From Tistrella mobilis KA081020-065 (GTDB lineage Bacteria; Pseudomonadota; Alphaproteobacteria; Tistrellales; Tistrellaceae), in NCBI RefSeq assembly GCF_000264455.2, contig NC_017956.1, forward strand, positions 3,268,001-3,332,000: a stretch of DNA of 64,000 bases. Direction: 5' to 3'. Numbering within the stretch: position 1 is the stretch's first letter; each line of letters starts with the position of its first letter. The notes under the pieces were generated by a model. The model saw only the letters and a list, made by a program, of their open reading frames with translations. It was not told the origin of the DNA and made no database searches. Both the position numbers and the translations under genes were made by a program. Positions 44,218 to 49,461 of this stretch are shown in pieces.

Positions 44218-44949
44218 TCAGAAGGCTTTCGCCACGGAACCGACGTCATCGCCTCGTCCGGCCTCCCCCAACCGACCGTCCTGCATCACAAGCCGGCGAT
44301 GGAACATGTCCAATGCCCGGTGATCATGGGTCACAACCAGCACCGCTGCACCACGATCTTCGGCAATGCGGCGGAACAATCCCATCACCCGGGCCGCGCG
44401 ATCCGCATCAAGCGCCGCCGTCGGTTCGTCGGCCAGCAGGAGAACCGGCTGATTGGCGATCGCCCTGGCGATCGCCACCCGCTGCTGCTCTCCGCCCGAG
44501 AGATGCACCGGCAGGGCTGCGGCCCGGCGACGCAGATCCAGCCAGTCGAGCAGTTCGGCTGCCCGCATCCGGGCCGGACGCCCTGTCATCCCGGCCACCT
44601 CCAGCGCAATGCGCACATTCTCTTCAGCCGTCAGGAAGGGAATCAGATTGGCTTTCTGGAACACGAAGCCGATATGGTCGCGGCGAAACCTGCGGCGCTC
44701 GGCGGCGGTCATCCCGCAGTCGGAGCCGGCGGCATCGCGGCCGGCAATCCGCACCCGACCCCGGTCCGGCGGCTCCAGCAGACCGGCGGTGAGCAGCAGG
44801 GTCGATTTACCCGAGCCGCTGGGCCCAAGCAGCGCCGCCATCTCGCCGGGTGCAAGCGCCAGGTCGATGTCATCCAACGCCCGCACCACCTCGTCGCCAC
44901 TGCGGAAATCGCGACCGACTCCCCGCATCTCAAGCACCGGCGCCGCCAT
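44218..44949 (-). CDS. ABC transporter ATP-binding protein (MacB/LolD/DevA type)
   Basis: 243 residues. Walker A LLGPSGSGKSTLL, Q-loop FVFQKANLIPFLTAEENV, signature LSGGEQQRVAIARAI, Walker B LLLADEPTAALD and switch VVTHDH are complete. The short spacing and the sequence around FQKANLIPF place it in the mechanotransmission class that pairs with FtsX-type permeases. Its start overlaps the end of the permease gene by one base. It drives the exporter built with 44949-46076 and 46073-47356. Confidence 0.93.
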   Translation of the reverse strand: MAAPVLEMRGVGRDFRSGDEVVRALDDIDLALAPGEMAALLGPSGSGKSTLLLTAGLLEPPDRGRVRIAGRDAAGSDCGMTAAERRRFRRDHIGFVFQKANLIPFLTAEENVRIALEVAGMTGRPARMRAAELLDWLDLRRRAAALPVHLSGGEQQRVAIARAIANQPVLLLADEPTAALDADRAARVMGLFRRIAEDRGAAVLVVTHDHRALDMFHRRLVMQDGRLGEAGRGDDVGSVAKAF

Positions 44950-46076
44950 CAGGCCAGCACCTCCTGCGCACGAACCCGCATCGCCTTCACAATGCCCGCG
45001 GCACTGCCGGCCAGGCAGGTCGCCAGTACCATCGCTCCGATCAGGGCGATATCGGCATCCAGCAGCAGCACCCGTCGCGGGAACATCGGAAACAGCAGCC
45101 GCCCGGCCGCAAGACCGACCCCAAGCCCGGTCACACCAAGGGCCAGGGCCTGGGTCGCGATCATGGCGACGATCAGCCGGTCGGCGGCCCCGATCAGCTT
45201 CAGCATGGCGATGGTGTGCAGCTTCTCGATCGTGCCGGTATAGAGGATCAGCGACACCACCACCGCGGTGATGGTCATCAGCAGCAGGCTGAACAGCAGG
45301 ATCTGCATGCGAAGCCGTTCAAGCCGGGCATTGAGCAACAGATCGCGCTGGTCCCGGGTGGTGAGCACCGCGACATCGCCCCATCCGGCGATCTCGGCCG
45401 CCACCGATATGGCGGCACCGGGCCGCACATCGACCGCCAGAGCCTGGACGTCGCCGTGATCGCCGGCGCTCCCCGCGGCCCGGCGCAGCAAAATGGCTTC
45501 CGAGGGGCGCGCCGCCCTCAGCTCGATCAGGTCGGGAATGGTCAGAGCCAGAACCGGATCACCATTGATGTCGACCATGTCGCGCGTCAGCCCGGTGACC
45601 CGGAGATGCTGATGCCCCACCACCAGCACGTCGCCGATCGCGAGACCCAGGCTGCGATCGGCGATGGCCACGTCATGCCGCTGGCCGAGCGGCAGTCCTT
45701 CCGCCAGGGGCAGCCAGCCGCCGTCGTCGTCCGGCCAGTCGAGCCCAAGCAGGCTCACCTGCCGCACCTGCCCGTCGATGCGCAGGCTGCGGGTCAGCGA
45801 CAGGAAGGGGCGCACCCTGATCACCCCGTCCACACCCTCGACCCGCCGTTCGGTCGCGAGCGGCACCGCCGATGTCTCGGCAAAGGGGCCACGGGTATCG
45901 CCCTGCACCACCCAGAGATCGGCGCCGATCCGGTCGATGACCATCAGGGCGTCGGCGACGATGCCTCGATAGATCCCGGTCATGCCGAAAGCGCCCATCG
46001 CCAGCAGGCCGATGCCGATCGCGGTCAGAACGAAGCGCAGCAGGTCGTGGCGGATATCGGCCAGAGCCAGCATCAT
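44949..46076 (-). CDS. FtsX-like ABC permease (DevC/MacB type)
   Basis: 375 residues. One membrane span near the N-terminus, a long periplasmic domain (about 40-250) and three C-terminal spans (QILLFSLLLMTITAVVVSLILYTGTIEKLHTIAMLKLIGAADR is the FtsX hallmark region) give the DevC layout. It would couple ATP hydrolysis to conformational change in the periplasm, expelling or extracting a substrate. It overlaps the adaptor gene by 4 bases. Confidence 0.9.
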   Translation of the reverse strand: MMLALADIRHDLLRFVLTAIGIGLLAMGAFGMTGIYRGIVADALMVIDRIGADLWVVQGDTRGPFAETSAVPLATERRVEGVDGVIRVRPFLSLTRSLRIDGQVRQVSLLGLDWPDDDGGWLPLAEGLPLGQRHDVAIADRSLGLAIGDVLVVGHQHLRVTGLTRDMVDINGDPVLALTIPDLIELRAARPSEAILLRRAAGSAGDHGDVQALAVDVRPGAAISVAAEIAGWGDVAVLTTRDQRDLLLNARLERLRMQILLFSLLLMTITAVVVSLILYTGTIEKLHTIAMLKLIGAADRLIVAMIATQALALGVTGLGVGLAAGRLLFPMFPRRVLLLDADIALIGAMVLATCLAGSAAGIVKAMRVRAQEVLA

Positions 46077-47356
46077 CGGGCGTCCTCCACCAGCCGCACC
46101 CGGCGCAGCGGATACAGGTCATCCGGCGCCAGAACCACTTCGCCGGGTATCAGGCCGTCGGTCACCTCCACCCGTCCGGCACTCACCAGCCCCAGGGTTA
46201 TCCGCCGCCAGCGGGCCCGACCGTCCTGGCCCAGCAGCCACACGCCGCTGTCGCCTGCCGGCTGCCCCGGTCGCGGGGCCAGCATCGCCCCCGGCACCCA
46301 GGTGACCCCCATGCGCTCACCGGTCAGGATCTGGACATCGACCCGCTGGCCCAGTGCCCAATGCCCCGGCAGGTTCTCAGGGACCAGATCGACCATCACC
46401 TCACGCGTTTCGGCATCGACCGCGCGGCCGACGCGGGCCACAGCCGCCCGCCACACTTGATCAGGGTCCGAGCGGAAGATCAGCGTCGCCGGCTGACCGG
46501 GTGCCAGACCGCTCATCCGGCTCTCATCAATGCGTGCGGTCACGATCAGGCTGCGGGGATCAACCAGATCCATCAGCGGCGCACCGGCACCGACCAGTGA
46601 TCCCAGATCGGCGGCACGGTCGGTGACGACGCCATCGAACGGCGCCGGAATCGCCGTATCGGCCAGCCGGGCGCGGACAGCATCAACCGCGGCGGCCGCG
46701 GCGATGACCGCGGCATCGCGCTCACGGATCATCGCATCCGCCTGGGCGATGGCCGCCACCCCACTCTCGGCCGCGGTGCGGTCGGCATCGAGGGTTGCGG
46801 GTGACACGGCACCACGGGCGCTCAAGGTCCGGCTGCGCCGATAGCGGCGGTCGGCCTCGGTTGCAGATGCCACCGCCTCCCGGCGCGCCGCCCGCGCCTG
46901 ATCGGCAGCCTGACGCGCGCCGGCATGGTCTGCTTCGGCGGCGGCAAGGCTGCCCGTCAGGTCATAGGCATCGAGCCTGATCAGCAGATGGCCGGCCTCG
47001 ACCCACTCCCCCCGCTCGGCGCCCAGGGCCAGAACCCGACCGGATACCCGGCTGGCCAGAGTGGCGCGGATCGTCGCGTCCAGCGTGCCCGGCCCCGATA
47101 CCACCAGCGGCATGACCCGGATCGCCGCGGTGAAGCCCGTCCGATCGATCGGCACGACATAGCGGCGATGGATCAGGGTCGCCGCCATCAACACCATGCC
47201 GGCGGCAAGAAGCCACGGCACCATCCGCCGGAGCAGGCGGCCGGGCCTGCGATCGAGAGGATGGGGATGGGGAGGATGGGGATCAGCAGCACGGGGATGG
47301 GTGGGTTCGGGATCGATGATCGGCATCAGGCGGGCTTTCGCGATGAACACAGGCAT
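46073..47356 (-). CDS. HlyD/RND-type periplasmic adaptor subunit
   Basis: 427 residues from the ATG at 47356 (a weaker start lies at residue 11). The cytosolic N-terminus is Pro/His-rich (PHPPHPHPLDRR). One membrane span (about 45-62) precedes a lipoyl-like half motif, a coiled-coil hairpin (AAAEADHAGARQAADQARAARREAVASATEADRRYR), then DTAIPAPFDGVVTDRAADLGSLVGAGAPLMDLVD. It joins the inner-membrane permease to an outer-membrane channel. No TolC gene is nearby. It is the first gene of the export unit and divergent from the EF-hand gene. Confidence 0.92.
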   Translation of the reverse strand: MPVFIAKARLMPIIDPEPTHPRAADPHPPHPHPLDRRPGRLLRRMVPWLLAAGMVLMAATLIHRRYVVPIDRTGFTAAIRVMPLVVSGPGTLDATIRATLASRVSGRVLALGAERGEWVEAGHLLIRLDAYDLTGSLAAAEADHAGARQAADQARAARREAVASATEADRRYRRSRTLSARGAVSPATLDADRTAAESGVAAIAQADAMIRERDAAVIAAAAAVDAVRARLADTAIPAPFDGVVTDRAADLGSLVGAGAPLMDLVDPRSLIVTARIDESRMSGLAPGQPATLIFRSDPDQVWRAAVARVGRAVDAETREVMVDLVPENLPGHWALGQRVDVQILTGERMGVTWVPGAMLAPRPGQPAGDSGVWLLGQDGRARWRRITLGLVSAGRVEVTDGLIPGEVVLAPDDLYPLRRVRLVEDAR

Positions 47357-47440: not shown

Positions 47441-47467
47441 CTTTCCTTCACTTTTCGCGACGGAAAG
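47441..47467. promoter_or_regulatory. Inverted repeat between the exporter and EF-hand genes
   Basis: CTTTCC (47441-47446) and GGAAAG (47462-47467) form a dyad around a 15-base AT-richer centre within the 201-base divergent intergenic region. It may be an operator for one or both directions, but the arms are short. Confidence 0.3.
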
Positions 47468-47557
47468 GTCGAGGACCATCCGTAAGCCCTCTTGACCGTC
47501 GCAGCCGGCGCCGCCGGCCGGCCGTCATACCTGATATCCAGATCCGGAGACCCCGTG

Positions 47558-47881
47558 ATGACCACATCCATCCATCTGCGGCTTGCCGCGCTGCTGTCCG
47601 GCGGCTGCCTGCTGATTGGAACCGCCGGCGCCGCCATCGCCGCCGAGCCGCCAACTTTCCAATCGATCGATACCGATGGCAATGGCACGCTCAGCCGCAC
47701 GGAATGGGGCAAGATGGTCGAGGAACAGATGGCCGTCGCCGAAGGCCGGGCGGCGAAGCGTCTGGCCGAGATGCCCGAGGATCGGCGGACCGAGGCGCTC
47801 GACCGACGATTCCGCAGCATAGACAGCGATAGCGACGGCAGCTTGTCCCAGGCGGAATGGGATGCGCGCCGGCGCAACTGA
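47558..47881 (+). CDS. Exported two-EF-hand protein
   Basis: 107 residues from the ATG at 47558 (GGAGA upstream). The signal peptide ends near AAIAAEPP. Two full calcium-binding loops are visible: D38-D40-N42-T44-E49 in DTDGNGTLSRTE and D89-D91-D93-S95-E100 in DSDSDGSLSQAE. The link between them is an Arg/Glu-rich helix. It probably binds calcium in the periplasm, as a sensor or buffer. It is 112 bases upstream of the ECF sigma gene on the same strand, so it may share its promoter or be its target. Confidence 0.87.
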   Translation: MTTSIHLRLAALLSGGCLLIGTAGAAIAAEPPTFQSIDTDGNGTLSRTEWGKMVEEQMAVAEGRAAKRLAEMPEDRRTEALDRRFRSIDSDSDGSLSQAEWDARRRN

Positions 47882-47993
47882 GCCATGGCCACCGGCTCCA
47901 GCCCGTCTCCTCCGTCCGCCTTTACAATCTGCTCCGACCGGGGGCCGTTGATATGATCCCGCTCATCACCGGCCGTGACAGCCCGGCTGCGCC

Positions 47994-48557
47994 ATGACCG
48001 AGCCCAGCGACGACAGTCTGGTCGTTCGGGTGGCGGCCGGCGATCACGCCGCATTCGCCCTGCTGATGACGCGCCATATGCGGCGCGCCATCAGCATCGC
48101 CCGTGGTGTTGCCCGCAACACCGCCGATGCCGACGAGATCGCCCAGGATGCCTTCCTCCGGCTCTGGACCCATGCCGGTCGCTTCGATCGCACGCGTGGC
48201 GGCTTCACCGCCTGGTTCGGCCGCATCGTGCTCAACCTGACGCTCGATCGACGGCGCCGGCCGGTGACCGAGCTGCTGGATGACCGGATCGCGGTCGCCG
48301 ACGACCGGCCGGATGCGTTGGACCGGCTGATCGGGGCCGAACGCGATGCCAGCCTGCACGCCGGGCTCGATCAGCTGGGTGACCGGCAGCGCGCCGCGAT
48401 CGTCCTGTTTCATGTCGAGGGGATCAGCGGGCATGACTGCGCGCAGATCCTGGATCTGAGCGACGATGCATTCGAAAGCCTGCTGTCGCGGGCACGCCGC
48501 AGCCTGCGCCGGGCGATCGACCGGCAAACCAGCCGGAAGGAGAGGTGTACACCATGA
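47994..48557 (+). CDS. ECF-type RNA polymerase sigma factor
   Basis: 187 residues. Region 2 (about 20-85) contains ADADEIAQDAFLRLWTHAGRFD, and region 4 (about 125-178) reads LDQLGDRQRAAIVLFHVEGISGHDCAQILDLSDDAFESLLSRARRSLRRA. There is no region 1 or 3, as expected for ECF factors. Its stop overlaps the start of the anti-sigma candidate (ATGA), the classic coupling for sigma/anti-sigma pairs. Confidence 0.95.
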   Translation: MTEPSDDSLVVRVAAGDHAAFALLMTRHMRRAISIARGVARNTADADEIAQDAFLRLWTHAGRFDRTRGGFTAWFGRIVLNLTLDRRRRPVTELLDDRIAVADDRPDALDRLIGAERDASLHAGLDQLGDRQRAAIVLFHVEGISGHDCAQILDLSDDAFESLLSRARRSLRRAIDRQTSRKERCTP

Positions 48558-49003
48558 CCCCCGACAGATTCCGCCGTCTCCTGGATGCCTATGGCGCCGA
48601 CATCGACCGCTGGCCCGCGCCCGACCGCCAGGCGGCCAGGACATGCCTGGCCCACCATCCCGATCTGCTCGTGCCGATGGGCCGGGCAGCCGCCCTTGAT
48701 GCATCGATCCGCCGCATCGCGCCCGCCGTGTCGCCGGACGCGGTCGCGGCAGCCATCGATGCGGTTAACCGGCGCCTTGAAGCCCCCCCTGCAAACACCC
48801 GGCGGCCTGCCGACCACGGCGGTGTCGGTCGGGCCCCACATCAGGCCGTGGCATTGGGCTGGCCGCTGGCCGCCCTGGCCGGCGCCGCGGCCATCCTGCT
48901 CGCCATCGGCCTGCACGGCCTGCCCGGCACGGCGGATGGTGCGGCCATGATGACCCTGCTGTTCGACAGCGATCTTATTCTGCTTGATGGAGCCGTCCGG
49001 TGA
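48554..49003 (+). CDS. One-TM anti-sigma factor candidate
   Basis: 149 residues from the ATG at 48554, 9 bases after an AAGGAGAGG-like site. The cytoplasmic part holds RFRRLLDAYGADIDRWPAPDRQAAR, a recurrent motif of proteins encoded after ECF sigma genes in alphaproteobacteria. One membrane span (about 101-122, PLAALAGAAAILLAIGL) is followed by a short periplasmic tail. It lacks the zinc HxxxCxxC motif. By position and topology it should hold the sigma factor inactive. It overlaps the next gene by 4 bases. Confidence 0.8.
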   Translation: MTPDRFRRLLDAYGADIDRWPAPDRQAARTCLAHHPDLLVPMGRAAALDASIRRIAPAVSPDAVAAAIDAVNRRLEAPPANTRRPADHGGVGRAPHQAVALGWPLAALAGAAAILLAIGLHGLPGTADGAAMMTLLFDSDLILLDGAVR

Positions 49004-49461
49004 TCCGTCCGCTCATCCACCGCCTGCGGCGCCCGCGTGCAGAGCGGCTGGCCCTCATCCTGTCGGTCGCGGCCAACCTCGCGGTTGCGGCGTATCTGCT
49101 CCTCGCCGAGCCTGCCCGGCCCTTCGGCCGGGATATGGCGCCGCGCGCCGCGCGCCTGGTGGAGATGATTTCAAACCGCCTGCCGCCGGCGGACGGCGCC
49201 AGATTGACGGCCCTCTATGCAGCGCGGCAGCCCGCGATGGCGGCGGAGGACATGGCGTTCCGCCGGGCGATGATCACCGTCATGGCCGAGATCGACAAAC
49301 CCGAGGTGGACCGTGCCGCCCTGCATGCGGCTTTCAACGAGGCGCGATCCATCCGCAGCCGCTCCGCCGATCTCATGATCGACATCTTCGTCGAGACGCT
49401 GGCCGATGCCTCCCTCGAGGCCAGGCAGCAGATCGTCGCGGAAATCCGCGAGGCGCGCTGA
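49000..49461 (+). CDS. CnrX/ZraP-like membrane-anchored periplasmic sensor
   Basis: 153 residues with a GTG start overlapping the anti-sigma stop. One span (about 17-36, LALILSVAANLAVAAYLLLA) anchors a helical periplasmic domain of the heavy-metal-sensor (Metal_resist) type: DMAPRAARLVEMISNRLPPADGARLTALY and LMIDIFVETLADASLEARQQIVAEI. In CnrX, His, Met and Glu residues bind nickel or cobalt; here the periplasmic part has one His, no Cys, and several Met. So it probably senses something other than the classical metals, or binds metal only weakly. Confidence 0.82.
   Translation: MIRPLIHRLRRPRAERLALILSVAANLAVAAYLLLAEPARPFGRDMAPRAARLVEMISNRLPPADGARLTALYAARQPAMAAEDMAFRRAMITVMAEIDKPEVDRAALHAAFNEARSIRSRSADLMIDIFVETLADASLEARQQIVAEIREAR

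Follow-up and report, generated by a model that had tools for sequence, protein, structure and literature searches.

The association of an ECF sigma factor with an anti-sigma factor and a CnrX-type sensor is an already known arrangement. In Cupriavidus metallidurans, the genes are ordered cnrY-cnrX-cnrH and are followed by an RND efflux operon (PMC4803752); signaling by CnrX requires Met123 (PMC7689651). In Caulobacter vibrioides, a Ca2+- and acid-responsive circuit formed by cabp and sigV (CCNA_02838/CCNA_02837) was published in 2026: cabp expression is SigV-dependent and induced by EGTA (Ca2+ limitation) and at pH 4, and the membrane component of the circuit was reported as unidentified (PMC13171946). 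In Azospirillum brasilense, RpoE8 activates the promoter of its own operon, which encodes the sigma factor, a hypothetical protein and a 'periplasmic heavy metal sensor', and for which the function was stated as unknown and no EF-hand gene was reported (PMC12826043).

We analyzed a locus that resembles each of these systems in a 64,000-nucleotide stretch of the Tistrella mobilis KA081020-065 genome (hereafter the window). On the + strand, an exported protein of 107 aa with two canonical EF-hand loops (47558..47881; Pfam EF-hand_7, 5e-11, two stretches) is followed by a 112-nt spacer (47882..47993), an ECF sigma factor of 187 aa (47994..48557), an anti-sigma candidate of 149 aa (48554..49003) and a periplasmic sensor of 153 aa with a GTG start and a predicted CnrX/Spy fold (49000..49461). 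The initial annotation had described an operon of a sigma factor, a one-TM inhibitor candidate and a periplasmic helical sensor with 4-base overlaps, following the logic of CnrH, CnrY and CnrX. This operon is real: the sigma/anti-sigma and anti-sigma/sensor pairs overlap in frame by 4 bases (ATGA, GTGA) between 47994 and 49461, and the CnrH/CnrY/CnrX-like logic holds, with the sensor fold being a prediction. The EF-hand gene does lie just upstream, as had been proposed, but it is separated from the sigma gene by the spacer rather than overlapping it. We consider that the operon probably encodes an autoregulated, membrane-gated ECF sigma switch, in which a metal-blind sensor controls the anti-sigma.

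Similar to CnrYXH (and to NccX), the locus thus combines in one operon an ECF sigma factor, a single-TM anti-sigma candidate and a TM-anchored helical periplasmic sensor; autoregulation and the sensor fold would be common to both, as predicted for the window operon. In contrast to the cnr order, the sigma gene comes first, and an RND efflux target is missing alongside: neither the gene list of the window nor a profile scan revealed a metal efflux RND permease adjoining the operon. Operons of the window type also differ from CnrYXH in often carrying an EF-hand gene. On the 3' side of the sensor gene lies a dihydrolipoamide-dehydrogenase-like gene on the opposite strand (recognized by eye). On the other side, a divergent ABC-type exporter (44218-47356, - strand) consists of an ATPase, a MacB/FtsX permease and an HlyD-type adaptor; it was dropped as a partner of the operon, being absent beside it in both sister genomes.

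The sigma factor has the composition of an ECF protein, with only regions 2 and 4 in about 190 aa (Sigma70_r2, 7.1e-16, and Sigma70_r4_2, 8e-9, both above Pfam cut-offs). It also matches NCBIfam PRK05602 at 3.8e-55, under that model's curated cut-off, and its solved relatives include CnrH (4cxf, 5e-13). ECF33 proved to be a wrong lead as its ECF group. In a quick tree of sigma factors, the branch separating the operon family from 14 other ECFs received an SH-aLRT support of 96%.

For the middle gene, we infer an anti-sigma role from its position, its topology and weak matches to an NCBIfam anti-sigma model, seen for 14/42 relatives (5.6e-6 at best). The modeled protein comprises a helical N-terminal domain (pLDDT 97-98 over residues 1-50), one TM near residues 102-120 and a short C-terminal tail; across 107 sequences, G14, W20 and P21 are invariant and each Gly of a G-x-x-x-G in the TM is 97% conserved. 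It belongs to no Pfam family and has no solved relative: against the PDB, neither profile nor fold matched a known anti-sigma, with a fold list that leaves known anti-sigma folds possible, and the candidate could not be aligned to CnrY with the tools used. The HxxxCxxC motif of zinc-binding anti-sigmas (ZAS, ChrR/RsrA type) was found in 0 of 106 relatives. The sensor family conserves S22 (96%) and N26 (100%) in its TM helix which, together with the G-x-x-x-G of the anti-sigma, form a pattern as expected for a TM-TM contact.

The sensor matches Pfam Metal_resist (PF13801) at 1.2e-12 (48.5 bits for a cut-off of 29.2), as do all 27 sensor relatives scanned (E up to 0.1). Its AlphaFold model, built from 27 sequences, shows a confident four-helix domain (pLDDT 88.5) arranged as a hooked hairpin behind one TM helix (~17-36). 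When this model was compared to solved structures by VIA-align, Z reached 9.6 for ZraP, 9.1 for both CnrX (rmsd 3.1 over 104) and NccX (over 112), 8.7 for CpxP and 7.9 for Spy, values to be read with the caution that middling scores are easily reached and that Z below ~13 can be commonplace among helical bundles. In Foldseek, CnrX and NccX led and ZraP, Spy and CpxP ranked lower, each match being weak when taken singly (E ~0.5 or weaker, prob 0.97). The fold assignment is nevertheless firm because sequence-profile and structural matches agree and CnrX-type relatives lead the list; judged from profiles and model, the sensor is a true member of the CnrX/NccX/ZraP/CpxP/Spy superfamily.

With Spy, CpxP and ZraP, the sensor shares the helical hairpin and an L-(S/T)xx(Q/R)-like motif; these proteins are soluble, whereas the window sensor is anchored by a TM and its gene accompanies those of a sigma factor and an anti-sigma. 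A misfolded periplasmic protein could bind the sensor in the manner of a Spy/CpxP client and free the anti-sigma. Such client binding would be a specific form of the autoregulated switch, so that the chances given to the two overlap, and we hold it to be a serious possibility that nonetheless falls short of an even chance. In its favor, among solved structures the sensor-family profile matched Spy best (1.2e-4), then NccX (0.0038) and CnrX (0.02), the C-terminal motif L-(S/T)-P-E-x-R is reminiscent of LTXXQ (two relatives match the LTXXQ Pfam family), and a separate Spy-like exported protein precedes the sigma gene in one related locus (L015). The structural scores, however, leave Spy and CnrX undistinguished, and for Caulobacter the published inducers are acid and Ca2+ limitation. 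An Arg-rich client-binding face was considered and dropped, Arg (14% of family residues) possibly reflecting G+C content; the sensor domain of the window has a net charge of -1. The family also conserves D104, R88, R116, L137 (a column occupied by Ala in the window sensor) and R142.

We next turned to the metal site. When NccX was aligned to 108 sensors, the CnrX ligands H42, H46, E63, H119 and M123 corresponded to R52, M56, Y73, I129 and T133 of the window sensor; His occupies the five ligand columns in at most 2 of the 108 sequences and the E63 column is mostly Leu or Phe. The lack of a classical site, proposed earlier for this protein, thus extends to its relatives: by profile alignment, no ligands superposing on the CnrX site were found in any of the 108, and the four-helix domain is predicted to be free of metal ligands. 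The composition reported for the periplasmic part (one His, no Cys, several Met) was also confirmed, with H109 as the single His, no Cys and 7 Met. Among the 108 sensors, no periplasmic column has 15% His or more, none has a conserved Cys, and the best Met column reaches 22%, a figure that speaks against the earlier suggestion of copper sensing via methionine. As judged by this alignment, the CnrX-type site is missing from the whole family, beyond this one protein; since conserved His, Cys or Met residues are missing from the periplasmic part, sensing of Ni, Co or Zn, or of copper through Met, appears unlikely. A conventional transition-metal sensor, for instance of copper, might still operate with scattered His, Met, carboxylates or N-terminal groups, and the CnrX-type fold, the Pfam name 'heavy-metal resistance' and the 7 Met and 1 His of the window protein are in line with it. 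We regard it as very improbable, given that 96% of the sensors lack Cys and 22% lack His, that the CnrX ligand columns are replaced and that no RND permease adjoins the operon.

The initial annotation had treated the operon as a single odd case; instead, it belongs to a widespread family. We first searched the class with only the anti-sigma as query, which gave matches in 49/289 alphaproteobacterial genomes; the anti-sigma gene was preceded by a sigma gene and followed by a sensor gene at nearly all of the loci fetched. With a profile of 42 anti-sigmas, the counts rose to 100/289 genomes of the class and 239/299 genomes of the Phenylobacterium/Caulobacter family. The order sigma-anti-sigma-sensor is kept in nearly all loci examined; because the three genes are found again in this order across Alphaproteobacteria, a chance arrangement is excluded. 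Among 80 named loci collected with a sigma profile, the ones closest to the query have the sensor and, in most cases, the anti-sigma as well, and distant ECF sigmas of other phyla carry neither, save three weak sensor-profile matches. From its gene order (sigma, hypothetical protein, heavy metal sensor, with a promoter activated by its own sigma), the rpoE8 operon likely belongs to the same family. The operon also seems to lie immediately downstream of glnE (adenylyltransferase, by eye) in Caulobacteraceae, Hyphomonadaceae and Hyphomicrobium (L042, L044, L046, L054, L140, L144, L147, L164; L168), with an EF-hand gene inserted between them in some. Operons of the family found in records titled Caballeronia, Paraburkholderia, Gammaproteobacteria and Myxococcales (L056, L059, L049, L053, L055) suggest either transfer beyond Alphaproteobacteria or mislabeling of MAGs.

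The EF-hand protein starts with a signal-peptide-like N-terminus, and its loops span residues 38-49 (DTDGNGTLSRTE) and 89-100 (DSDSDGSLSQAE). Its gene is kept upstream of the sigma gene in the sister genomes and in many relatives, at 112 nt in the window genome and at 3-4 nt in two sister genomes. Comparison of the upstream sequences (L176, L177, L178) showed that the spacer of the window (47882-47993) is ~110 nt longer than in these two; it holds a TTTACA...GATATGAT stretch resembling a sigma70-type promoter. The window genome carries a second four-gene set on another contig (L179; G000:C4:141781-143958). In it, the EF-hand gene shares 4 nt with the sigma gene, neighboring genes likewise overlap by 4 nt and the EF-hand protein has several EF-hand-like loops. 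Immediately upstream, an EF-hand gene was present in 12/24 operons across the class (including two from the genus of the window) and in 46/50 of those fetched from the Phenylobacterium/Caulobacter family. In the named set, a strict count gave an EF-hand gene at 10/27 operons vs 3/49 other ECF loci (p 0.001), and an adjusted count, in which L050 (it has an anti-sigma) and L098 and L103 (their contigs end near the sigma gene) are shifted into the family, gave 13/30 vs 0/46 (p 8e-7). By these counts, the EF-hand gene is linked to the operon but dispensable, because its presence on the sigma tree is patchy (~16 changes, at least 5 of them forced).

Alternatively, calcium could be sensed primarily by the EF-hand protein itself, which in its Ca2+-loaded or apo form would bind the sensor/anti-sigma complex and directly gate sigma release. 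The high frequency of the gene upstream of the operons and its overlap with sigma in the second operon are compatible with this role, as are the properties of Caulobacter CaBP, a periplasmic protein whose mobility shifts in a Ca2+-dependent manner and whose overexpression increases sigV expression (PMC13171946). We nevertheless find this rather unlikely: the trio persists without an EF-hand gene in many lineages, with repeated label changes on the sigma tree, and other exported proteins occupy the slot. In Caulobacter, loss of CaBP lowers sigV expression only slightly and leaves the induction of the cabp promoter in place (PMC13171946), which argues against the EF-hand protein as sole sensor. 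That about half of the class-wide operons are devoid of an EF-hand gene also counts against the autoregulated switch. The slot before sigma is filled otherwise at L015:2409-2900 (-), L056:4503-4847 and L059:4385-4858, the alternative exported proteins being Spy-like (L015) or carrying W-x-x-GHW-type repeats.

A candidate ECF-type promoter, GGAA-N15-CGTA, is present on the + strand before the EF-hand gene (47462..47484, 74 nt before its start codon), and CGACGGAAA-N14-CGTA is found at the corresponding position in the window genome and the two sister genomes. Because this box precedes it, the EF-hand gene appears to be the first gene transcribed from the operon's own candidate promoter. Among two-box motifs, GGAA-N13-17-CGTT showed the strongest enrichment ahead of the operons of the family (24/116 vs 2.0 in shuffles, an enrichment inflated by related rows), and the candidate promoter type matches the mapped cabp promoter (GGAA-CGTT type). 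Genome-wide, CGACGGAA-N14-15-CGT had 7 matches, as many as a reversed-pattern control. This counts against the autoregulated switch and, as there is no excess over the control, only the operon's own promoter site is taken into account. The report that cabp and sigV are monocistronic and also under SigT (PMC13171946) counts in the same direction.

We then read the cabp-sigV locus in four close relatives of NA1000. These genomes were recognized as members of the C. vibrioides group by several primers of the published study (PMC13171946), which match at the expected positions (0-1 mismatches in the best case); each locus encodes a three-EF-hand protein, a sigma factor 27 nt later, then an anti-sigma and a sensor that overlap by 4 bases, all belonging to the same family as those of the window. 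The Metal_resist profile also matches in the named C. vibrioides control genome. The sole exact match of a cabp primer in the Phenylobacterium family (L118) was a chance match inside a peptidase-like gene. Like cabp-sigV, the window locus has the gene of an exported EF-hand protein placed immediately before an ECF sigma gene of the same type, along with a candidate promoter of the GGAA-CGTT type, and the relatives of cabp-sigV carry the same anti-sigma and sensor downstream; the Caulobacter loci differ by three EF-hands (two in the window) and by a long Pro/Ala linker in the sensors. The anti-sigma and the sensor were not described in the cabp-sigV study (PMC13171946). Because the C. vibrioides-group genomes carry both genes after cabp-sigV, their products are, on gene content, strong candidates for the missing membrane component.

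Altogether, we propose the following working of the autoregulated switch, in which the binding of sigma by the anti-sigma, the contact between sensor and anti-sigma and the nature of the signal are what we infer. At rest, the anti-sigma, with its cytoplasmic N-terminal domain and one TM, would keep sigma at the membrane and would itself be kept inhibitory by the TM-anchored sensor. The sensor may respond to an envelope condition (acid, low Ca2+ or misfolded or displaced envelope material) instead of Ni, Co or Zn; an envelope condition is the most likely signal because the CnrX/CpxP/Spy fold is here devoid of the metal site. A change in the periplasmic domain would then be passed through the membrane to the anti-sigma and sigma would be released, to transcribe its own operon from the GGAA-CGT(T/A) promoter, EF-hand gene included. 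The EF-hand protein would thus be a target that probably also modulates the switch through Ca2+-dependent feedback, rather than an obligatory sensor. Calcium as the signal has indirect support, by analogy, from Caulobacter cabp-sigV at the same locus type, and Ca2+ limitation and acid as natural cues are carried over from Caulobacter.

A broad branch without the metal site and coupled to an EF-hand gene is new, and partly anticipated by the Caulobacter paper (PMC13171946). The automatic name 'periplasmic heavy metal sensor', given to many sensors of this kind, is probably misleading in this sensor family. We advance only tentatively the idea of a calcium/acid ECF branch, in which, across Alphaproteobacteria, a CnrX-fold sensor that has lost the metal site and an exported EF-hand protein would together link sigma release to the Ca2+ state of the periplasm; if true, a calcium-gated anti-sigma would be of a kind not described so far. 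Candidate genes for the membrane component of cabp-sigV are now at hand in a genetically tractable strain, and how the periplasmic calcium/acid state is passed to transcription in bacteria becomes a directly testable question.
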